Assembly: GCF_000246985.2 (NCBI RefSeq)
Contig: NC_022084.1
Coordinates: forward strand, 181,994-245,993
Direction: 5' to 3'
Length of the DNA: 64,000 nt
Origin: Thermococcus litoralis DSM 5473
GTDB lineage: Archaea; Methanobacteriota_B; Thermococci; Thermococcales; Thermococcaceae
Shown piece by piece: positions 38,438 to 53,370 of this stretch. Each line of letters opens with the position of its first letter. Position 1 is the first letter of the stretch. The notes under the pieces were generated by a model. The model worked only from the letters and a program-made list of their open reading frames with translations. It was not told the DNA's origin and did not search any database. The position numbers and the translations under genes were made by a program.

Positions 38438-38593
38438 TCACTCCTTAAGCTTGGTTCTCCTCCAGTATCTCCTCTTGGGGTGAGTCAAAACCTTCCTGTT
38501 GGTTTTCACAATAACCCAAACAGGTATTCTCCTATTTTGCTTAGCTGCCTTCGCCAAGCGGAGCTTCTTTGCCAACGGTTTGTTTCTTGCCAT
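38438..38593 (-). CDS. rpl39e: 50S ribosomal protein L39e
   Basis: 51 residues, very basic: [20 protein letters not shown], ending [16 protein letters not shown] 38593 follows GGAGGGGTTAAGA; the longer upstream frame is not coding. It is the first gene of the ribosomal/IF6/prefoldin cluster. Confidence 0.96.
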
Positions 38594-38740
38594 TCTTAAC
38601 CCCTCCTTAAGTTGTGAACGTGAAAAGCCCAACTAATGCCCGATTAGTAAAGCCTTATTTAAATTTTTGCTTTCACTCACATTCAAAGATTAGGGGTTAA
38701 AAAGCTTTTCATTCGAATAGGCAAGAAAAAGAAGAAAAGG

Positions 38741-39904
38741 TCACCCTATCTGGAAAGCTGTACTCCTAAGCTCTCCCCTCTCAAAGCGGTGTGGGTCATA
38801 CCACTCCCAGTCAAGTGGCACGTGAGTTTTTCCTTTAACAATCAGCTCTGCCATTGCTTCTCCAACTCCTGGAGCCATCATAAAGCCGTGTCCGCTGAAA
38901 CCAGCCGCAATGTAGAATCCATCTATGTAGTTAATCTTTCCTATAGCCGGATTGCTGTCCGGAGTCTTTGCGTAAAACCCCGCCCACTGCCTTAGTATGT
39001 GAACATATTTCAACGCTGGGATTATTCTCGTTGCCCATTTGAGCACTTCCCTTAAGAAGTCATACGTTGGAGTTACATCGTATGTTGGGCCATGCTCTAG
39101 TCCAGTTCCACAAAGAACTCCGCCATCTTCCCCATCTTGAATTACATAGGAGTCGTTCCATGCTGGAGGACATACAAGCGGTTCAATCTGCCCTTCTTTA
39201 AGTGGTTCCGTTTTAACAAGCTGGTGCTTGTAGGGCTTTATTGGGATGAACTCCTTATCCAGTCCAGCCATCTCGTTTATTATCGGTGCCCAAGCGTTTG
39301 CAGCGTTAACAACAACGTCAGCGTTTATAGTCCCTCTGTTTGTTTTCACTCCTTTGACCTCGTTGTTTTCCACGATAATGTCAGTTACCTCAGTATATTC
39401 ATAAATCTCCGCCCCGAGCTCTTTGGCTTTCCTTGCGAAGGCAAAGACCGTTTTGAAGGGATTCGCCTTCCCATCGGTTGGATTCCACTGCCCAGCCAAG
39501 AATTCATCAGCATTTAATAAAGGAACTATCTCTTTTGCCTCCTCTGGGGTTATGAGCCTTGTTGGAACGCCGAACTTGTTGTGGAGCTTTATGTTTTGTT
39601 TAAACGCTTCAACTTCCTCTTCAGTTGTTGCGAGGAAGAGATAACCAGTCTGCTTGAAGTTTACGTCATATTCAAGCTCTTCACTGAGCTTTTTCCACCT
39701 TTCAACGTTGTATTTTTGCAACTTAATGTTCGCCTCATCGGTAAACTGCTGCCTGATTCCAGTTGCGCACCTAAATGTTGAGCCGTTTCCAAGGTAGCCC
39801 TTCTCAACGAGAACAACATCAGCACCAAGCTTTGCTAGGTGGTAGGCTATGGAAGTCCCTGTGCTTCCTCCGCCTATGACAACTACCTCCGCTTTACTCT
39901 TCAT
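38741..39904 (-). CDS. FAD-dependent proline dehydrogenase-type beta subunit
   Basis: 387 residues in the sarcosine oxidase beta/DAAO fold. VVVIGGGSTGTSIAYHLAKLGADVVLVEK binds FAD (landmark), then RCATGIRQQFTDEANI, and the C-terminal DGFYIAAGFSGHGFMMAPGVGEAMAELI. It is the catalytic subunit of the alpha-beta-gamma-delta dye-linked L-proline dehydrogenase (PDH1) type known from Thermococcales. The four genes at 42108-38741 have exactly this composition and overlap end to end. The substrate may be L-proline or a hydroxyproline isomer. A close paralogue lies at 42222-43361. Confidence 0.85.
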   Translation of the reverse strand: MKSKAEVVVIGGGSTGTSIAYHLAKLGADVVLVEKGYLGNGSTFRCATGIRQQFTDEANIKLQKYNVERWKKLSEELEYDVNFKQTGYLFLATTEEEVEAFKQNIKLHNKFGVPTRLITPEEAKEIVPLLNADEFLAGQWNPTDGKANPFKTVFAFARKAKELGAEIYEYTEVTDIIVENNEVKGVKTNRGTINADVVVNAANAWAPIINEMAGLDKEFIPIKPYKHQLVKTEPLKEGQIEPLVCPPAWNDSYVIQDGEDGGVLCGTGLEHGPTYDVTPTYDFLREVLKWATRIIPALKYVHILRQWAGFYAKTPDSNPAIGKINYIDGFYIAAGFSGHGFMMAPGVGEAMAELIVKGKTHVPLDWEWYDPHRFERGELRSTAFQIG

Positions 39905-40175
39905 TCATATCACCCACCAGAACTCCCGCTGGAACTGGTCTAATTGGAATCCTAGTTGCGGGGAGCTTTATCTCATCCGGACTCTTTCCGGTTTTTCTTG
40001 CTATTATGCTGATCACCATTGGAAGACACGTTCTTCCCTGACAAGGCCCCATCCCAATTCTCAAAAGACGTTTTATCATCTCTATGTCCGTAACCCCCTG
40101 CTCAATTAGCGCCTCAATCTCCTCGAGAGTTACTTCATTACATCTGCATATTATCCTCTCGCCCTTTTCACTCAT
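39894..40175 (-). CDS. BFD-like [2Fe-2S] subunit (gamma) of the dehydrogenase complex
   Basis: 93 residues. ICRCNEVTLEEIEALIEQGV and IGMGPCQGRTC supply the four cysteines of a bacterioferritin-associated-ferredoxin-type [2Fe-2S] cluster. It overlaps the beta-subunit gene by 11 bases and the ferredoxin gene by four. It likely passes electrons from the FAD of the beta subunit. Confidence 0.88.
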   Translation of the reverse strand: MSEKGERIICRCNEVTLEEIEALIEQGVTDIEMIKRLLRIGMGPCQGRTCLPMVISIIARKTGKSPDEIKLPATRIPIRPVPAGVLVGDMNEE

Positions 40176-40678
40176 TCTCTCACCACCTTAACAGCCCTAA
40201 CATCCCAAGCCAGCTCTATGGGCATCTCAACGGTTATAATTGGTGTATCCCCCTTGCTTTTCTCCCTCGGAATTACTGTGACCACTTTGCCTTCTCCTAC
40301 TTCCTCTCCGACCCTGTTGAGAAGAACCACTTTTTCGCCCACCTTTGGAACTGGGAGAATCTCGTGAGGCATTGTTACCCTTGCTTTGTCTCCAATATAG
40401 TGCACCATGAAAAACGCCAGTCCCGGGCAAATTTGCACGCACAGAGAACAGCCGACGCACTTTTCATAATCAACGATTGGAACCGCATTCGGGTGTTCCA
40501 TGAGAACCGCATTGGTGGGACATATCTCTTTACACGGCGTACACGGGATTTCTTGAGGGCACTCGGGAACGGCTACGGGTCTTTGTCTTAATCTCTCTTC
40601 GCTTGGCAAACCAACGTACTTTTTCAGCTCTTCAACGCTCAGATAGCCCTCCCTTAGGTATTTGGGGATTTCGTTCAT
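40172..40678 (-). CDS. ferredoxin-like subunit (delta) of the dehydrogenase complex
   Basis: 168 residues. Two [4Fe-4S] motifs lie in the middle (CTPCKEICPTNAV and CVGCSLCVQICPG), with a beta-rich C-terminal domain (VPKVGEKVVLLNRVGEEVGEGK). The start and stop overlap both neighbours by four bases, as in a tightly coupled complex operon. Confidence 0.88.
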   Translation of the reverse strand: MNEIPKYLREGYLSVEELKKYVGLPSEERLRQRPVAVPECPQEIPCTPCKEICPTNAVLMEHPNAVPIVDYEKCVGCSLCVQICPGLAFFMVHYIGDKARVTMPHEILPVPKVGEKVVLLNRVGEEVGEGKVVTVIPREKSKGDTPIITVEMPIELAWDVRAVKVVRE

Positions 40679-42108
40679 TCTACCACCACCTTCTTAAGGC
40701 CTTCAAGAACCTTTCTTCCAAATGGCCCGCTCCTGAACTCTTCAAGCTCTTTCTGGGCTTTCTCTATCTCCTTAAGCCATTCTGGAGATGCAACTCCCGC
40801 AGCTAAAGCAGCCCCAATTCCGGCTATCTTTCCTTCAAGCATTGCGGTTGTGGCCTCTTCAATACCTGCCGAATCACCAGCAACAAAAATTCCCTTTATC
40901 GTCGTTTCCATCCTTGAGTCTCTAATCACAACATGACCACCAAGCTCTGGAACGTACTTTATCTGACATCCAACTTGGTGGAGAAGCTCTATACTCGGTC
41001 TCAATCCAACGGCTAGGGCAATTACATCAACTTCAAAGACCTTCTCAGTTCCCGGAATAACGTTCCAATTCTCATCGAGCTGAGCAACAACCGCTCTTTC
41101 AACTTTTTCTTTGCCCTCTGCTCTTAGGATTGTATGCCTTGTGAGTATCGGAATGCCGAGTCTCCTAACTTTGGCTGCATGAACGAAATAGCCTCCTATC
41201 TTCGGCATTGCTTCAACTATTGCCTCAACTTTCACTCCCGCTTGGTAGAGCTGGTATGCTAGAATTAGTCCCACATTGCCGGCTCCCACTATTAAAACTC
41301 TATCTCCCGGCTTTACTCCGTAAGTGTTCATTAGGGTTTGAATCGCACCAGCTCCATAAACTCCGGGCAAATCGTTGTTCTCAAAGGGAATCATCCTTTC
41401 CATTGCTCCCGTTGCGACAACAACGGTCTTCCCTTTGAACTCTATCAGCTCCTTGTTCTTTCTAACTCCAACAACGAGCTTCTCCTCTCCATTTTGTAGA
41501 AGCATTATTGCGGAGGTTTCCAAGAAAATTTCAATGTTTCTTCTCTTGAGCTCTTCGCTTAATATTTCGGCAATTTTTATTCCCCTAACTCCAGCAAACT
41601 GCTCTCTCTTACCAAAGAACTTGTGGGTCTGCTTAACCAATTGTCCTCCGAGCATCGGGTTTTCATCTAAGAGAACAACCTTTGCCCCAGCATCTCTCGC
41701 ATTTATTGCCGCCATCATTCCAGCTGGACCACCGCCAATCACAATCACGTCTGCCTCTATTCTCGGCGGTTCTTTCCACTTGGGTGGCTTTGTGGTTTTA
41801 GGCAAGGCAGGCTTTTCTTCTTGCCTCTCTATTTGCATGCCTTCTTCAACAAGTGTTATACAAGTCCTTACGTTTGGGATACCGTTTACCTTCATTAGGC
41901 ATGAGGAACACTTCCCAATTGCACAGAAAAGCCCCCTTGGTCTGTGCTTCTTAGTGGAGTGCTGGAAAGTCCTTATACCCGCAGCATGGAGAGCCATTGC
42001 AATTGTTTCGCCTTCGTAGGCTTTTATCGGCTTTCCTTCAAAATAAATTGTAATCTCCTTTCCGCGTACTCTTTCAAAATCTAAAATAGGATGTTCAGTA
42101 AGTCGCAT
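40675..42108 (-). CDS. FAD/NAD(P)-dependent alpha subunit with N-terminal [2Fe-2S] domain
   Basis: 477 residues. Residues ~1-95 form a Fer2_4 ferredoxin domain (GLFCAIGKCSSCLMKVNG, RTC) with its cysteines intact. Then comes a pyridine nucleotide-disulfide reductase fold: VIVIGGGPAGMMAAINARDA, VVATGAMERMIPFENNDLPGVYGAGA, VLIVGAGNVGLILAYQ, and GIFVAGDSAGIEEATTAMLEGKIAG. It is the PDH1 alpha subunit, which carries FAD, ATP and NADH dehydrogenase-like activity in relatives. Start follows GGTGAAACTTT. Confidence 0.88.
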   Translation of the reverse strand: MRLTEHPILDFERVRGKEITIYFEGKPIKAYEGETIAMALHAAGIRTFQHSTKKHRPRGLFCAIGKCSSCLMKVNGIPNVRTCITLVEEGMQIERQEEKPALPKTTKPPKWKEPPRIEADVIVIGGGPAGMMAAINARDAGAKVVLLDENPMLGGQLVKQTHKFFGKREQFAGVRGIKIAEILSEELKRRNIEIFLETSAIMLLQNGEEKLVVGVRKNKELIEFKGKTVVVATGAMERMIPFENNDLPGVYGAGAIQTLMNTYGVKPGDRVLIVGAGNVGLILAYQLYQAGVKVEAIVEAMPKIGGYFVHAAKVRRLGIPILTRHTILRAEGKEKVERAVVAQLDENWNVIPGTEKVFEVDVIALAVGLRPSIELLHQVGCQIKYVPELGGHVVIRDSRMETTIKGIFVAGDSAGIEEATTAMLEGKIAGIGAALAAGVASPEWLKEIEKAQKELEEFRSGPFGRKVLEGLKKVVVE

Positions 42109-42221
42109 AAAGTTTCACCAGTGTAAAATAGAGTGCAATACTTTATGAAGATTTTTTCATAAAAAAGTTGTACACCTTTAGTTGTTGAGGAAACAAAAGT
42201 AGTAAAAGAAAATAGATTGGG
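42109..42221. promoter_or_regulatory. promoter region of the four-subunit dehydrogenase operon
   Basis: It contains an 8-bp perfect inverted repeat, TTTATGAA (42142-42149) and TTCATAAA (42156-42163) with a six-base loop, and the element GTTGTACACCTTT (42167-42179). The latter recurs in opposite orientation with one change at 44923-44935, before the second dehydrogenase operon. ATTTTACACTGGTGA precedes the start codon. Confidence 0.45.
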
Positions 42222-43361
42222 TCAACCCATCTGCAGGGCTTTTTGTCTGAGCTCCCCACGTTCAAAGCGGTAAGGATCATACCATTCAATGGGAAGTGAT
42301 GTTTTACCCTTGGTTATTAAATCACTAAGCATTTCCGCAACTGCTGGAGCCATCATGAAGCCGTGTCCGCTGAAACCAGCCGCAATGTAGTACTCATCTA
42401 TTTCATTTATCCTTCCGATTGCAGGGTTGCTATCGGGAGTCTTTGCGTAATAGCCTGCCCAAGTTCTCAAGATCAACAACTCTCTAATTGCAGGAACTAT
42501 CTTTGAGAGGTAGGCTGTGACCTCGCGCAAGAACGTATAAGAGGGGCTTAAATCATAAGTTGGGCCAACTTCGTAACCCACTCCTCCGATTATTCCACCG
42601 TGGTCAGTTTGAGTTAGATAAGAATCTTTGTATCTGAAAGAGATTACCATCGGATTTATTGTATTCTTTTTTATCGGCTGGGTTATTATTGCTTGGTGTT
42701 TGTAGGGTTCTATAGGAATACGTATGGGCACCTTGGCCATTGCATTGATGAGCTTAGCCCATGCATTGGTCGCGTTGATTACTATTCCTGTTTTTATAAT
42801 CCCTTTGTTGGTTTTTACTCCCTTAATTTCGCCTTTCTCTATAATTATGTCTTTGACTTCAGTGTATTCGTATATTTTCGCTCCCATCTCTTGGGCATGT
42901 AGGGCAAAAGCTGTCGTTGCATGGAACGGGTCGGCTTTTCCATCAGTTGGGTTCCATGAAGCCGCCATGACTTCACTTACATCCAAAAGAGGTACTATCT
43001 CTTTTGCTTCTTCAGGAGTTATGAGCCTTGTAGGAACGCCAAAGCGGTTTTGGATTGATATGTTCTCTTTGAATTGATTGATCTCTTCTTCACTGTAGAG
43101 TAAGAAAAGATAACCCGTCTGCTTAAATGGGAATCCGTATTCTTCGCTGTATTTTTTCCACAGCTCCACAGAGCGTTTCATGACTTGGACGTTTGCTTCA
43201 TCGTTGAATTGCTGCCTGATTCCAGTTCCACACCTAAAGGTAGATCCAGAACCTATAAACCTCTTTTCGAGAACCACTACATCTTCTCCTCTTCTGGCAA
43301 GCTCATGAGCCAAAGCAATGCCAGTTATTCCTCCACCGATGATAACAATATCCCCTTTCAT
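42222..43361 (-). CDS. second FAD-dependent proline dehydrogenase-type beta subunit
   Basis: 379 residues. It parallels the 38741 gene throughout: IVIIGGGITGIALAHELARRGEDVVVLEK (landmark), RCGTGIRQQFNDEANV, TPEEAKEIVPLLDVSEV, and YIAAGFSGHGFMMAPAVAEML. ATG 43361 follows GGAGAGTGATAGT; the frame begins further upstream inside the preceding gene. It probably uses a different proline-type substrate, for example D-hydroxyproline made by the epimerase at 46049, but this is inference. Confidence 0.85.
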   Translation of the reverse strand: MKGDIVIIGGGITGIALAHELARRGEDVVVLEKRFIGSGSTFRCGTGIRQQFNDEANVQVMKRSVELWKKYSEEYGFPFKQTGYLFLLYSEEEINQFKENISIQNRFGVPTRLITPEEAKEIVPLLDVSEVMAASWNPTDGKADPFHATTAFALHAQEMGAKIYEYTEVKDIIIEKGEIKGVKTNKGIIKTGIVINATNAWAKLINAMAKVPIRIPIEPYKHQAIITQPIKKNTINPMVISFRYKDSYLTQTDHGGIIGGVGYEVGPTYDLSPSYTFLREVTAYLSKIVPAIRELLILRTWAGYYAKTPDSNPAIGRINEIDEYYIAAGFSGHGFMMAPAVAEMLSDLITKGKTSLPIEWYDPYRFERGELRQKALQMG

Positions 43362-43365
43362 ACTA

Positions 43366-44850
43366 TCACTCTCCTTTGGCAAGAGCTTTCACTCTCACAT
43401 TCTTAAGCGGGGGTCTTGCAACGGGAAGGTCTATTTTAGCCATATCTATTCCGGTTCTCTGGCTAACAAGCAGTGCACCATTGAATAAGCAGAATCTTCC
43501 TTGGCAGAATCCCATTGCCAAGTGGGTAAGGCGCTTCACGATCTGCAAATCAGTTATTCCCTTCTTTACTACATCGTCAACTTTCTTTAGGTTGACATCA
43601 CAGCCGCATATTTGGACATCCTCTAGGTTCATGTCCTTGAACTCTATCCTCTGCATGGGCATTGGCTCGGGCTCATATTCCTCAAGCTTTTCTCTGTAAA
43701 CTGCTGGAGTGGCCTCGTAGCCAAATTCCCTTAGGATGTAAGCCCCTACAAGTTTACCCTCCAGATAATTGGCATAGTGGGGCTTTATTCCATTTGCACT
43801 TCCCGCAACATATATCCCATCTCTTATGCGGTTTTGTTCATCAAGAACCGGAACATAATAGCCCCATTTGAATTTGAGCTTTCCTCCTGCTTGGGTGATT
43901 GGGTTTATATCGGGCAAGCGGTAGTCACTCACGATGACTGCATCAACTTCATACACATTGCCGTTGGTATCTATAAGCCTCTCAACTTTCTCTTCCCCTT
44001 CAACGCGCTTTGGATTTGGCACTACAATGTACTCAATGTTACATTTTTCAAGCTCCGGTGTTATTCTCTCAGGTTTTCTTCCAACGACGGCAACTCTCTT
44101 GCCCGGAGCAACTCCCCACTTGTTTATAACCTCAAGAGCAAAGTCGAGCCTAAAGACACCCGGAAACTCGTTGTTCTCAAAGAGAAGAATATTTTCCACA
44201 GCTCCGGTAGCTAATACAACCCTCTTCGCCATTATTTCTATCAGCTGGTCTTTTTTGACTACGGGAACCAAGAAGTATTCCCCTTCATCAAAAACCCCAA
44301 GAGCTATTGTACCCTTGAAGACATTAACGTTATCGTTGAATTGAGAGGTCAGTTCCTTGATGACTTTCTTGGGTTCTTCTTCAAACCCTTCCTGCTGGGT
44401 GCTCTTTAGGGACATTAAGCCTCCAAGCCACCCTCTCTCTTCGATTAGGGCAACTGTTAGATACTCCTGAAGCTCCAAAGTTGCGCCTATTCCAGCTATT
44501 CCTCCCCCTATTATAGCGACGTCAACAACCTCCCTAAGAACTCCCTTACTTTCGTCTATTTCCACAGTTTCTTGAAATTCACCGTAGTTCTGCCTCTCTA
44601 TTCTCATTCCATCCTTAACGAGGGTTTTCCTCCCGTTTATATTCTTAACTCCATTTACAATGACCGGCAACGGGCCAAAAGTGAATGCACCCCTTTTCCT
44701 TCCCTGAAGACTGGTCGTTATCCAGTAAATGCCGTTTGCAAGCAGTGCCACTGGAAGTTTTTCTCCTTCATATGCTTCCAGAGCTTTGCCCTCAAAATAT
44801 ATTGTGACTTTCTTAGAAGCGTCTTTCTCATACAGATCCAGCGGACGCAT
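43366..44850 (-). CDS. second alpha-type subunit, degenerate ferredoxin domain fused to a BFD-like domain
   Basis: 494 residues. The N-terminal region aligns with Fer2_4 (VTIYFEGKALEAYEGEKLPVALLANGI, landmark) but has none of the cysteines, so it cannot hold a [2Fe-2S] cluster. The middle is a flavoprotein fold with VAIIGGGIAGIGATLEL and GIYVAGSANGIKPHYA. The C-terminus (~405-470) is a BFD-like domain with ICGCDVNLKK and MGFCQGRFC, i.e. the gamma subunit fused on. ATG 44850 follows GGGTGATAGC. It forms a two-gene operon with the beta paralogue, the compact form of the four-gene system. Confidence 0.83.
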   Translation of the reverse strand: MRPLDLYEKDASKKVTIYFEGKALEAYEGEKLPVALLANGIYWITTSLQGRKRGAFTFGPLPVIVNGVKNINGRKTLVKDGMRIERQNYGEFQETVEIDESKGVLREVVDVAIIGGGIAGIGATLELQEYLTVALIEERGWLGGLMSLKSTQQEGFEEEPKKVIKELTSQFNDNVNVFKGTIALGVFDEGEYFLVPVVKKDQLIEIMAKRVVLATGAVENILLFENNEFPGVFRLDFALEVINKWGVAPGKRVAVVGRKPERITPELEKCNIEYIVVPNPKRVEGEEKVERLIDTNGNVYEVDAVIVSDYRLPDINPITQAGGKLKFKWGYYVPVLDEQNRIRDGIYVAGSANGIKPHYANYLEGKLVGAYILREFGYEATPAVYREKLEEYEPEPMPMQRIEFKDMNLEDVQICGCDVNLKKVDDVVKKGITDLQIVKRLTHLAMGFCQGRFCLFNGALLVSQRTGIDMAKIDLPVARPPLKNVRVKALAKGE

Positions 44851-44880
44851 GCTATCACCCATGAACAAGTTTTATCATGA

Positions 44881-45024
44881 AAGTTTACACATATAAACTA
44901 TTTAAACCTTTTGTTTAAACACAAAGGTGTAGAACCTATGGTCGTATGGATAACTTATTGATATTTTCGTGTTCAAAGCAAAGAACATTTATACAACAAA
45001 GAGCATTACAATATGGTGTTCGGC
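44881..45024. promoter_or_regulatory. divergent promoter region with palindromic TTTAAAC and TACACC elements
   Basis: For the minus-strand operon, ATTTAAACC...GTTTAAAC at 44898-44920 contains an imperfect inverted repeat beside a TATA-like element. AAAGGTGTAGAAC (44923-44935) is the inverse of the element at 42167-42179. For the plus-strand OCD gene, CATTTATACAAC (44987-44998) is the likely TATA box and GGTGTTCGGC the ribosome-binding site. Confidence 0.45.
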
Positions 45025-47044
<2,020 letters not shown>

Positions 47045-48899: not shown

Positions 48900-51356
48900 A
48901 TGAGTGAGGTCGTTACTTGTTGTGTTGATGTTAAGGAGAAAATAGAAAAAGAGTTAGAAAGGCGCAGAAGTTCTATAAGGCCCATAAACGAGAGGGTCGC
49001 TAAACTCAGAGAAGAGAGCGTGAACACTGAGGTGAGAATCTCTTCTGAGAGGGCGAGGCTGATAACCGAGTTCTACAAGAGTGATTTACCCAAAGGAAAA
49101 TCAATTCCCGTTCAAAGAGCTCTCGCATTTAAATACCTCCTTGAACACTGTAGCCTACCCGTTGAAGACGGGCAGCTCATCGTCGGGATTAGGGGCACTG
49201 GCGTTAAAGAGGTTCCAACTTATCCCGAAATCACGGTTCACAGCATAGAGGATCTTGAAATTTTGAACTCAAGGGAGAATATGCCATACAGGGTTGATGA
49301 GGAGACTAAAGAACTCTACGAGAGGGAGATAATCCCCTTCTGGAAAGGAAGGGCGATGAGGGACATAATTTTCGAGAACCTACCCCAGGAGTGGATCGAC
49401 GCTTACGAAGCCGGCGTCTGGACAGAGTTCATGGAGCAGAGGGCTCCGGGACACACTGCGGGTGGCGAGAGAATTTTCAAGATGGGCGTTCTCGACATCA
49501 AAGAGGAGATCAGGAGGAAGATGGAGGAACTCGACCCGAGCGACCCTGAGTATTACGAGAAGATGGAAGAGCTTAAGGCAATGGACATCGTTGCAGATGC
49601 GATTTTAATCTACGCCCGTAGGTACGCTGAAAAGCTGGAGAAAATGGCGGAGGAGGAGACCGACCCCAAGAGAAAAGAAGAGCTGAAGCAGATGGCAGAG
49701 ATATGCAGGTGGGTGCCCGCTCATCCCCCCAGAACCTTCTGGGAGGCCTTACAGCACTACTGGTTCATACACGTGGGAGTCACCTATGAGACCAACCCGT
49801 GGGACTCATTCAACCCCGGCAGGATAGACCAGCACCTCTACCCCTTCTACAAGAAGGACATAGAGGAGGGAAGGCTTACGAGGGAGAAAGCGAAGGAGCT
49901 CCTCCAGTGCTTCTGGCTCAAGTTCAACAACCAGCCTGCCGTTCCGAAGGTTGGGGTGACTGCAGAGGAGAGCTTCACATACAACGACTTCTCAAAGCTC
50001 AACGTTGGCGGACTGAAGGAAGACGGCTCCGATGGAGTTAATGAGCTCTCCTATTTGATTCTCGAAGTCCTCAGTGAAATGAGGACTTTGCAACCAAACA
50101 CCGCCGTGCTGGTGAGCGAGAAAAATCCTGACCGCTTCCTCATTGAAGCCCTGAAGGTAGTTGGACCAGGATTCGGCGAGCCGCCGTTCTTCAACTTCGA
50201 CGGCGTCATAGTGAAGATGCTCAGGCAGGGTAAGAGCCTTGAGGATGCGAGAACTTCGGGAGTGAGCGGCTGCGTGGAGAGCGGAGCCTTCGGGAAGGAA
50301 GCCTACATACTCACCGGCTACTTCAACCTGCCAAAAATCCTCGAGATAACCCTCAACAACGGCGTTGATCCAAGAACTGGCAAAAAGATTGGCCTTGAGA
50401 CCGGCGACCCGAGGAACTTCAAGAGCTTTGAGGAGCTCTGGGAGGCCTTCATGAAGCAGATAAAACACTTCATGGACATAAAGATGAAAGGCAACGACAT
50501 AATTGAGACCCTCTACGCAAAGTATCTGCCGGTGCCATTCATGTCTCTGTGGATAGAGGACTGCGTTGAGAAGGCTAAGGACTACAACTGCGGGGGAGCT
50601 AGATACAACACTCAATACATTCAGGTAGTTGGGCTAGGAACTATAGCAGACAGCTTAGCCGCAATAAAGTACCACATCTTTGATAAGAAGACGTTCACGA
50701 TGGAAGAGCTTCTTGAGGCATTAAAGAACAACTGGAAGGGTTATGAACTTATGAGGGAAATACTCCGCAACCCCGATAAAACTCCCAAGTTTGGAAACGA
50801 TGATGACTACGTCGACGAGATAGCCAAGAGAGTCGTGGATGAGGTTGTTGACCTCATCGAGAGCTATCCACCTTCTCCGGTTAGGAAAGCATCAAAGAGG
50901 GCTTACTTCCTCCCGACGACTGTTCACGTTTACTTTGGAAAAGTTACCGGAGCAACGCCCGATGGAAGGGAGGCAGGCTTTCCAGTCTCTGAGGGAGTTT
51001 CTCCAGTTCAAGGTATGGATAGAAAAGGAATTGCTGCTGTATTTAGGAGCGTTACCAAGTGCGACTGGGACAAGACGGGAGGGGCATTGCTAAACCAGAA
51101 GCTTACTCCAGATTTGTTTGATAGTGAAGAGAACCTCAAGAAATTGGCACAACTAATAAGGACGTTCTTTAGACTTGGTGGCCACCATGTGCAGTTCAAC
51201 GTTGTGAGTGCTGAGCTCCTTAGGGAGGCTCAAAGAAACCCTCAAGACTTTCAGGATTTAATGGTTAGAGTGGCAGGTTATAGTGACTACTTCGTAAACC
51301 TGCCCAAAGGGCTACAAGAGGAGATAATAAGGAGGACAGAGCACAAAGAACTCTAA
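48900..51356 (+). CDS. hypD: glycyl radical dehydratase, probably trans-4-hydroxy-L-proline dehydratase
   Basis: 818 residues. The glycyl radical site is RVAGYSDYF with Gly793; the thiyl cysteine is Cys458 in SGCVE. The Glu two residues after the Cys marks a dehydratase/lyase, not pyruvate formate-lyase, which has CC. Residues reported for Clostridioides difficile HypD (recalled: F152, H160, D278, S334, D339, F340, C434, E436, Y450, T645, G765) fall here on F177, H185, D302, S358, D363, F364, C458, E460, Y474, T673 and G793, with only small offset changes. HypD removes water from trans-4-hydroxy-L-proline to give pyrroline-5-carboxylate. An activase is encoded two genes downstream. The enzyme is oxygen-sensitive, consistent with an anaerobe. 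Confidence 0.83.
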   Translation: MSEVVTCCVDVKEKIEKELERRRSSIRPINERVAKLREESVNTEVRISSERARLITEFYKSDLPKGKSIPVQRALAFKYLLEHCSLPVEDGQLIVGIRGTGVKEVPTYPEITVHSIEDLEILNSRENMPYRVDEETKELYEREIIPFWKGRAMRDIIFENLPQEWIDAYEAGVWTEFMEQRAPGHTAGGERIFKMGVLDIKEEIRRKMEELDPSDPEYYEKMEELKAMDIVADAILIYARRYAEKLEKMAEEETDPKRKEELKQMAEICRWVPAHPPRTFWEALQHYWFIHVGVTYETNPWDSFNPGRIDQHLYPFYKKDIEEGRLTREKAKELLQCFWLKFNNQPAVPKVGVTAEESFTYNDFSKLNVGGLKEDGSDGVNELSYLILEVLSEMRTLQPNTAVLVSEKNPDRFLIEALKVVGPGFGEPPFFNFDGVIVKMLRQGKSLEDARTSGVSGCVESGAFGKEAYILTGYFNLPKILEITLNNGVDPRTGKKIGLETGDPRNFKSFEELWEAFMKQIKHFMDIKMKGNDIIETLYAKYLPVPFMSLWIEDCVEKAKDYNCGGARYNTQYIQVVGLGTIADSLAAIKYHIFDKKTFTMEELLEALKNNWKGYELMREILRNPDKTPKFGNDDDYVDEIAKRVVDEVVDLIESYPPSPVRKASKRAYFLPTTVHVYFGKVTGATPDGREAGFPVSEGVSPVQGMDRKGIAAVFRSVTKCDWDKTGGALLNQKLTPDLFDSEENLKKLAQLIRTFFRLGGHHVQFNVVSAELLREAQRNPQDFQDLMVRVAGYSDYFVNLPKGLQEEIIRRTEHKEL

Positions 51357-51399
51357 CTCCCTTTTGATTTTATTTTTAGTGAAGGTTTGAGGTGAGATA

Positions 51400-52446
51400 A
51401 TGTTCAAAAAACTTGAGAACTTAGAGAAATGGGAACCCCCAAAAGATTGGATGGTAATTAAAACTCTCGATACTCACACTGCTGGAGAACCACTAAGGAT
51501 AATCTTAAGCGGTTTCCCAGAGATTCCCGGAAAAACAATACTAGAAAAGAGGCGCTATCTCATGGAAAACCTAGATCACCTTAGAAAAGCCCTAATGTGG
51601 GAGCCAAGAGGACATGCAGATATGTATGGGGCAATAATAACGGAACCTGTTAGTGAAGAAGCAGACTTCGGCGTAATATTCATGCACAACGAAGGTTATA
51701 GTACAATGTGTGGTCATGCGACCATAGCCCTTGGAAAAGTTGCTGTGGAGTGCGGGCTTGTTGAAGCTAAAGAACCAATAACCGAGATAAAGATGGACAG
51801 CCCAGCTGGTCTAATCAAGATTTACGTTAAGGTTAGGGATGGAAAAGTGGAGAAAGTTTACTTCCACAACGTGCCATCTTTTGTTCTTTTCAAAGATGAA
51901 ACTATCAACGTTCCAGGAATAGGGGAAGTTAAATACGATCTTGCCTATGGGGGAGCGTTCTACGCATTCGTGAATGCTGAAGAGATTGGATTAAAGTGCA
52001 CTCCAGAATATTACAGGCAACTCATTGACGTCGGCATGAAAATTAAAAGAGCTATAATGTCCGAAAAAGAAATAAGGCACCCATTTGAGGAGGATTTAAG
52101 CTTTCTGTATGGGACGATATTCATAGGAGAGCCGGAAGATGAGAACTCTCACAGCAGGCATGTTTGCATATTCGCCGATGGTGAAGTTGATAGAAGTCCA
52201 ACGGGAACCGGCGTAAGTGCAAGGCTTGCAATCCTCTATGAAAAAGGAGAAATCGACATAGGAGAAGAGATAACAATCGAGAGCATAATCGGCACAAAGT
52301 TCACCGGAAAAGTTGTTGAAGAGACAAGATACGGCCTTTACAGGGCAATAATCCCTGAAGTTGGAGGAAACGCCTACATAGTGGCTAAGAATACCTTTTT
52401 AATCGACCCCCAAGATCCACTCAAGTACGGATTTTTCTTAAGATGA
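51400..52446 (+). CDS. trans-3-hydroxy-L-proline dehydratase (proline racemase superfamily)
   Basis: 348 residues. The first catalytic cysteine is kept (Cys104 in TMCGHATIA), but the second is Thr268 (DRSPTGTGVSAR). The Cys/Thr pair defines the dehydratase subgroup, as in human L3HYPDH, and excludes racemisation. The product is pyrroline-2-carboxylate, the substrate of the OCD homologue at 45025. ATG 51400 follows GAGGTGAGATA; it lies 43 bases after hypD and nine before the activase, in one operon. Confidence 0.92.
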   Translation: MFKKLENLEKWEPPKDWMVIKTLDTHTAGEPLRIILSGFPEIPGKTILEKRRYLMENLDHLRKALMWEPRGHADMYGAIITEPVSEEADFGVIFMHNEGYSTMCGHATIALGKVAVECGLVEAKEPITEIKMDSPAGLIKIYVKVRDGKVEKVYFHNVPSFVLFKDETINVPGIGEVKYDLAYGGAFYAFVNAEEIGLKCTPEYYRQLIDVGMKIKRAIMSEKEIRHPFEEDLSFLYGTIFIGEPEDENSHSRHVCIFADGEVDRSPTGTGVSARLAILYEKGEIDIGEEITIESIIGTKFTGKVVEETRYGLYRAIIPEVGGNAYIVAKNTFLIDPQDPLKYGFFLR

Positions 52447-52455
52447 GGAGGACAA

Positions 52456-53370
52456 ATGATGGTCAAGGGTATAATCTTTGACATAAAGCGCTATGCAATC
52501 CATGACGGCCCGGGAATCAGAACTACAATCTTTATGAAGGGCTGTCCGCTGAGGTGCTGGTGGTGTCACAACCCAGAGGGGATATCCCCAAAGCCGGATA
52601 TCATGTACTTCAGCTTTAAGTGCATCCACTGCCACACCTGCGTTAAGGCTTGTCCCGAAAATGCGGTTAGCTTCGATGAAAATGAGATTCAACATATCGA
52701 TAGAGAAAAGTGCACAGGTTGTGGGATTTGTGCAGAGCTTTGCCCAACGAATGCCCTAAGGCTTGTGGGCAAAGTTGTTACTGTGGATGAGCTCATTCGC
52801 GAGATTGAAAAGGACATTAAGTTCCATGACAGCTCCGATGGGGGAGTAACGTTCTCTGGTGGAGAACCTCTTTTCCAGCCAGAATTCTTGGAAGATATCC
52901 TCAAGGAGTGCAAGAAGAGGTACATTCATACAACAGTCGATACCTCTGGATACGCCCCAACAAGAATTTTGGAGAAGATACTCTCTTACACAGACCTCTT
53001 CCTATATGACCTGAAACTTTTTGATGAAAAAGAACACATCAAATATACTGGAGTTCCAAATGAATTGATAAAGAAAAACTTAATTTTCCTTGTTGAAAAG
53101 AAAGCTAACGTAATCCTAAGGTTTCCAGTTATCCCGGGAATAACAGACACAGAATGGAACGTAAAAGGTTGGGCAAGATTCCTTTCAGAGCTTGACTTAA
53201 GTTCTATTCAGGAGATAGATCTGCTGCCATACCATGATGTTGGAGAAAAGTTCAACCGCTTGGGAAGGGAATACAAAATGGAAGTTCACCACGCGCCATC
53301 TGACGAAACATTAAAATGGATCAAGGAAGAATTTAAAGGCTTAGGGCTCAAAGTCAAAATCGGTGGGTAG
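52456..53370 (+). CDS. glycyl radical enzyme activase (radical SAM)
   Basis: 304 residues. The radical SAM motif is CPLRCWWC (Cys30, 34, 37), followed by two inserted ferredoxin-type [4Fe-4S] motifs (CIHCHTCVKACPENA and CTGCGICAELCPTNA), the layout of dehydratase activases as opposed to PFL activase, which lacks the insert. GGVTFSGGEPLFQPEF is the SAM-binding GGEP region. It would generate the radical on Gly793 of the HypD-like enzyme in the same operon. The start follows GGAGGACAA. Confidence 0.92.
   Translation: MMVKGIIFDIKRYAIHDGPGIRTTIFMKGCPLRCWWCHNPEGISPKPDIMYFSFKCIHCHTCVKACPENAVSFDENEIQHIDREKCTGCGICAELCPTNALRLVGKVVTVDELIREIEKDIKFHDSSDGGVTFSGGEPLFQPEFLEDILKECKKRYIHTTVDTSGYAPTRILEKILSYTDLFLYDLKLFDEKEHIKYTGVPNELIKKNLIFLVEKKANVILRFPVIPGITDTEWNVKGWARFLSELDLSSIQEIDLLPYHDVGEKFNRLGREYKMEVHHAPSDETLKWIKEEFKGLGLKVKIGG

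Follow-up and report, generated by a model that had tools for sequence, protein, structure and literature searches.

The window, a 64,000-nucleotide stretch of Thermococcus litoralis DNA, contains a gene that, judged by its sequence, very probably encodes the alpha subunit of PDH1, a dye-linked L-proline dehydrogenase made of two subunits (Table 1). The first-pass annotation had presented this subunit as an unexplained oddity. That description no longer holds, because the protein is PDH1, the structure of a close relative has been solved and both of the features that had drawn attention are in print (2007 and 2015). In PDH1 a Fer2_4-type domain free of cysteines and a fused four-cysteine domain are already known to be normal, and the flagged gene is settled as that of a known enzyme.

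Identity of the gene pair

The best solved relative of the window alpha was PH1363, chain A of PDB entry 1Y56, the structure of L-proline dehydrogenase PDH1 from P. horikoshii solved in 2005 (E = 6.3e-226, residues 7-498 of the 500-aa open reading frame). The product of the gene directly downstream matched chain B (1y56_B) with an E value of 1.9e-213. At a locus of P. horikoshii type (L052) the alpha matches 1y56_A over residues 1-493 of 493, and the window alpha and beta were 68.6 and 79.9% identical to this pair. For T. litoralis OCC_00357/OCC_00352 against PH1363/PH1364, the accessible part of PMC4364671 (2015) gives 69 and 80%. Because these values agree and the surrounding genes also match in kind the T. 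litoralis cluster set out in that part of the paper, the window pair is evidently the gene pair described there. With the P. horikoshii enzyme (PH1363/PH1364, alpha4beta4) the window shares both genes and their order, a full-length PH1363-type alpha with a PH1364-type beta directly downstream, as well as the cysteine-free Fer2_4-type domain, the single GxGxxG motif and the fused four-cysteine C-terminus. The differences are species divergence only, plus the context: a PDH2 operon follows directly downstream of the window pair, whereas the fetched flanks of L052 contained no PDH2 gene.

Table 1. Features of the PDH1 pair and the adjoining PDH2 operon in the window.
Feature	Coordinates	Strand	Details
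PDH1 alpha subunit	44850-43366	minus	494 aa from ATG at 44850
Longer alternative alpha ORF	44868-43366	minus	500 aa, TTG start
Fer2_4-type N-terminal domain without cluster cysteines	44814-44587	minus	Pfam PF13510, 57.7 bits, residues 19-94 of 500-aa ORF
First dinucleotide-binding region with the only GxGxxG of alpha (GGGIAG)	44523-44080	minus	Pfam PF07992, residues 116-263 of 500-aa ORF
C-terminal A3/BFD-type four-cysteine domain (C415, C417, C449, C454)	43608-43375	minus	Pfam PF17806, extended to C415
PDH1 beta subunit, FAD-dependent catalytic (DAO family), 379 aa	43361-42222	minus	1y56_B match, Pfam DAO, RTW motif
PDH2-type paralogous alpha (alpha2), four Fer2_4 cysteines and second GxGxxG kept	42108-40675	minus	Pfam, alignment, motif
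PDH2 ferredoxin-type subunit (gamma, pdhF in print)	40678-40172	minus	Pfam Fer4; name by gene order (accessible part of PMC4364671)
PDH2 BFD-type subunit (delta, pdhX in print)	40175-39894	minus	Pfam Fer2_BFD and SO_alpha_A3; C10, C12, C45, C50; name by gene order (accessible part of PMC4364671)
PDH2 beta subunit	39904-38741	minus	Pfam DAO

The ATG is the likelier start of alpha than the upstream TTG, since a GGTGA-like site lies just 5' of it and the alignment with PH1363 begins there. As the only cysteines of the 494-aa protein are C270, C415, C417, C449 and C454, the Fer2_4 region is cysteine-free. The claim that it lacks the cluster cysteines kept by the paralogue at 40675 was thereby borne out (0/4 against C62, C67, C70 and C83). 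The best Pyr_redox_2 (PF07992) stretch covered just profile positions 2-149 of 291, and a single GxGxxG remains, the second having gone. In the P. horikoshii enzyme this first dinucleotide region reportedly binds ATP. SO_alpha_A3 (PF17806) scored 37.3 bits over residues 424-498 of the 500-aa frame.

Cysteine loss in the Fer2-type domain of 1Y56 had been printed in 2007 (PMC1949818), and the accessible text of that paper has the inserts kept in the lineage; beside this statement stands the 4-residue gap that our own alignment places at the cysteine loop of PDH1 alphas relative to alpha2. Similarly, a supplementary-table legend in the accessible part of PMC4575208 (2015) likens the delta subunit to the last ~90 residues of the alpha from P. 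horikoshii. The first-pass annotation had equated the C-terminal BFD domain with a gamma subunit: a fused four-cysteine A3/BFD-type domain is indeed present, but its counterpart is named delta (pdhX) in print.

An AlphaFold model of the window alpha, built with 18 sequences, reached a best mean pLDDT of 80.6 (66.0-72.0 for the other four models). Foldseek returned 1y56_A as its first match (TM 0.92 by query length), with sarcosine oxidase alpha next. The model is uninformative on cysteine geometry and too weak at the cysteines to speak for a cluster, with pLDDT below 50 at residues 45-55, 224-226, 446-450 and 486-494. Heterotetrameric sarcosine oxidase SoxA (2gag, 1vrq) also matches alpha in sequence over the Fer2_4-type and first dinucleotide regions and shares the A3 family name. 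Membership in that family was rejected: SoxA has ~965 aa, alpha is far shorter at 494 aa, and the soxA model gave 122.3 bits against a cut-off of 1164.

The racemase and hydroxyproline genes in the neighbourhood leave room for a PDH1-like complex that acts not on L-proline but on D-proline or cis-4-hydroxy-D-proline, supplied by the neighbouring racemase/epimerase. There are two proline racemase-family genes nearby, one of them at 46040-47044, and according to the accessible part of PMC4364671 an archaeal D-ProDH can convert cis-4-hydroxy-D-proline. We consider such a switch very unlikely, as the beta is 79.9% identical to its P. horikoshii-type counterpart and groups with 24 other PDH1 betas (100/99 in the beta tree). 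A ProR-type neighbour, moreover, occurred in just 2 of the 24 further loci that carry alpha1 and beta1 (L047 and L048), as far as their short fetched flanks reach. L-proline dehydrogenase PDH1 remains the preferred identity.

Other genes of the neighbourhood are recorded here in their own right. The plus-strand stretch 48900-53370 carries a gene for a glycyl-radical enzyme of the HypD type (trans-4-hydroxy-L-proline dehydratase, 1161 bits against a cut-off of 1100), then a proline racemase-family gene and a radical-SAM activating-enzyme-like gene. Among the 94 genomes of the order, 5 had a HypD match above the cut-off, and there were three more partial matches that fell short of it; the one match among 14 control genomes, in E. 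coli, was likewise too low. The words 'glycyl radical' are absent from the accessible text of PMC4364671, which describes the cluster. At L052 a sodium:solute symporter gene (PF00474; L052:2239-3849, plus strand) lies directly 5' of the PDH1 pair and plausibly encodes a proline importer.

Distribution and the missing cysteines

Searching 94 genomes from the order to which the window belongs (evidently Thermococcales) with the alpha protein, and counting the listing by hand, we found a full-length fused alpha in 67, a short alpha in 7 (matches ending at residues 387-398) and alpha only as pieces in 6. In the other 14 there was either no match at all or none better than 3.8e-42, where matches to the alpha2 paralogue lie. 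A single TGA fell within the match in four of the 67 genomes (G048, G071, G072 and G055); the rows from these genomes (L024, L025, L026 and L060) nevertheless retain the four-cysteine domain in frame. A wider search of the phylum covered 115 genomes at a threshold of 1e-20, and 3 of the 21 genomes from other families matched alpha (3.0e-37, 5.1e-36 and 1.0e-27).

The motif differences were uniform, in a survey whose rows do not each stand for a separate species. All 53 PDH1-type alphas with the region, seven split ones among them, had 0/4 Fer2_4 cysteines, the same 4-residue gap and no second GxGxxG, whereas all 12 PDH2-type alphas had 4/4 cysteines and the second GxGxxG. The CxC...CxxxxC pattern was present in 47/47 fused rows, 7/7 separate BFD-type genes of the split form described below and 12/12 delta genes. 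RxW occurred in every one of the 24 beta1 proteins of other loci and in 8 of the 9 beta2 proteins examined; the ninth is truncated by its contig stretch.

A broken frame does occur nearby: the ornithine cyclodeaminase-like (Pyr2C reductase) gene at 45013-46001 (plus strand) is in two frames of 224 and 102 aa, and it might be asked whether the missing alpha cysteines also reflect a sequencing or frame error. The first-pass annotation had itself named a frame error masking the cysteines as one thing that would overturn its reading. We give this practically no credence. It is refuted by the 53/53 relatives without the cysteines and with the same gap, and by the crystallised protein (1y56_A), which lacks them likewise. 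The Pyr2C reductase gene is whole at L010, L047 and L048 (328-330 aa). Its break in the deposited T. litoralis sequence seems already known, because the accessible part of PMC4364671 writes the gene as OCC_00362(7).

The adjoining PDH2 operon and the electron path

The four-subunit PDH2 (alpha-beta-gamma-delta; T. profundus pdhA/F/X/B), encoded in the window at 38741-42108, has alpha, beta and BFD-type parts homologous to those of PDH1. It differs in that its alpha keeps the four Fer2_4 cysteines and the second GxGxxG, and in that its BFD-type and ferredoxin-type parts are separate subunits. The alpha1 unit of the window has none of these cysteines, one GxGxxG and a fused BFD-type domain, and a ferredoxin-type gene stands only in the neighbouring unit. 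The window order of alpha, ferredoxin-type, BFD-type and beta fits the PDH2 order alpha, gamma (pdhF), delta (pdhX), beta given in the accessible part of PMC4364671, and on this ground gamma is the ferredoxin-type and delta the BFD-type subunit. By description in the accessible text of PMC4575208, the bacterial flavin-containing opine and D-hydroxyproline dehydrogenases (alpha4beta4gamma4) comprise the same modules with FAD, FMN and [2Fe-2S]; unlike in PDH1, their Fer2-type part is a separate gamma subunit.

The absence of a delta ferredoxin gene from the operon, as claimed earlier, held for the two-gene alpha1-beta1 unit, which contains no ferredoxin gene. The ferredoxin is, however, named gamma (pdhF), and its operon is close by: only 113 nt separate the beta1 stop from the start of alpha2, which lies on the same strand and is followed by the ferredoxin-type gene. 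Since the two units are so arranged, alpha1-beta1 may be co-transcribed with the ferredoxin-containing PDH2 operon in this genome. A TTTAAATA stretch was seen by eye ~50 nt 5' of the alpha ATG. A sigma-70/terminator scan of 38500-45100, with a tool not built for archaea, gave fewer promoter-like sites than shuffled sequence (4 against a mean of 8.5) and more terminator-like sites (11 against 6.3, sd 2.7).

This arrangement raises the idea that PDH1 alpha-beta shares the PDH2 gamma 113 nt downstream as its outlet in vivo. The tandem units on one strand speak for it, as do a downstream gamma homologue in 11 of the 24 other alpha1-beta1 loci and the lack of a minus-strand terminator-like site in the beta1-alpha2 gap (42109-42221) in the same non-archaeal scan. 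The gap nevertheless has T-rich stretches, visible by eye, that could hold an archaeal terminator. Twelve of the 24 loci have no gamma or delta homologue in their fetched flanks (L045 ends too soon to score, and the short-flank loci L012-L040 were left out of the operon count), so that a PDH1 unit without an adjoining PDH2 is common. The P. horikoshii enzyme is also reported as alpha4beta4 in the accessible part of PMC4364671. Taken together, a shared gamma is improbable.

We instead lean towards the C-terminal four-cysteine domain as the electron outlet of PDH1. Alpha would assemble with the beta encoded just downstream. In work of 2005 (Tsuge; Kawakami) the P. horikoshii PDH1 reportedly binds ATP, carries FAD in beta, which oxidises L-proline, and holds FMN at the alpha-beta interface, and its alpha is said to have no NADH dehydrogenase activity. 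The loss of the second GxGxxG fits that reported absence. By analogy with this relative, the window beta would oxidise L-proline on FAD and pass electrons to FMN between beta and alpha. From FMN they would leave through the A3/BFD-type domain, if it holds a [2Fe-2S] cluster, to some acceptor. Having lost their motifs, the second nucleotide site and the ferredoxin-like domain at the N-terminus of alpha would probably be structural, and PDH1 alpha would no longer serve as an electron outlet in the way that alpha may do in PDH2. The earlier expectation that the electron route differs from that of the four-subunit complex is a fair one, and the loss of the second GxGxxG adds to it.

The printed record touches on parts of this route. 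The title of the 1Y56 structure paper, as given in reference lists, names FAD, FMN and ATP. In the accessible part of PMC4575208 the RxW motif is linked to FMN, the [2Fe-2S] cluster of bacterial opine dehydrogenase is assigned to its gamma subunit, and a table bears the footnote 'Four cysteine cluster' with no clear tie to one row. In the literature searched we found no statement on iron or [2Fe-2S] in the four-cysteine domain of PDH1 and, in line with the first-pass annotation, no physiological electron acceptor named.

The split three-gene form and the order of events

Seven of the 94 genomes (L041, L042, L043, L044, L045, L046 and L047) have PDH1 in a three-gene form. Here alpha is 404-420 aa long, and a separate four-cysteine BFD-type gene of 93-98 aa stands between alpha and beta. 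Its product most closely resembles the C-terminal domain of the fused alpha, and the two such proteins given to Pfam both matched SO_alpha_A3 and Fer2_BFD. We found no paper on this form in a literature search that did not reach most subscription journals. These seven genomes, which pair cysteine-free alphas with an unfused BFD-type gene, make it too simple to treat loss and gain as one event, as the first-pass annotation had done. Because the seven split alphas are already cysteine-free, the comparison indicates that Fer2_4 cysteine loss came before, or independently of, the BFD fusion.

The 21 fused rows entered in the alpha tree all fell into a single clade (98/100); the split rows branched outside this clade, towards the alpha2 outgroup. 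This topology fits a single fusion after cysteine loss and, as the alpha2 outgroup is unfused, one fusion would be the simplest reading. A later fission in place of this order may be conceived, because an A3 domain, by family name, is likewise part of SoxA chains. With a long branch to the outgroup (1.38 on either side of the root), the rooting is insecure, and constraining the split alphas to one clade was not rejected (p-AU 0.401).

One locus sits awkwardly between the two forms. At L048:4198-5700 the alpha is fused, the only such case in genus code g5; the other five PDH1 carriers of that genus studied here are split. In the alpha tree L048 branches basally within the fused clade (98/100), whereas the beta tree puts its beta outside all other PDH1 betas, at an open fork (82/62). 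This conflict may reflect transfer or gene fission; constraining L048 with the split alphas gave a borderline result (p-AU 0.0501).

On balance we favour, with some reserve, an origin of PDH1 in two steps. The ferredoxin-type cluster and the second nucleotide site of alpha would have disappeared first, at a time when a gene of its own still encoded the BFD-type protein, and fusion of the BFD-type domain to alpha would have come later; the seven trio genomes would then be living carriers of an older-type, three-subunit PDH1. The split trio is a small addition to a known enzyme and the order of events a modest gain, but the trio offers a natural test of what the fusion changes. As the cluster loss is common to the fused and split forms, it was not the fusion of the BFD-type domain that made the old Fer2-type cluster dispensable.
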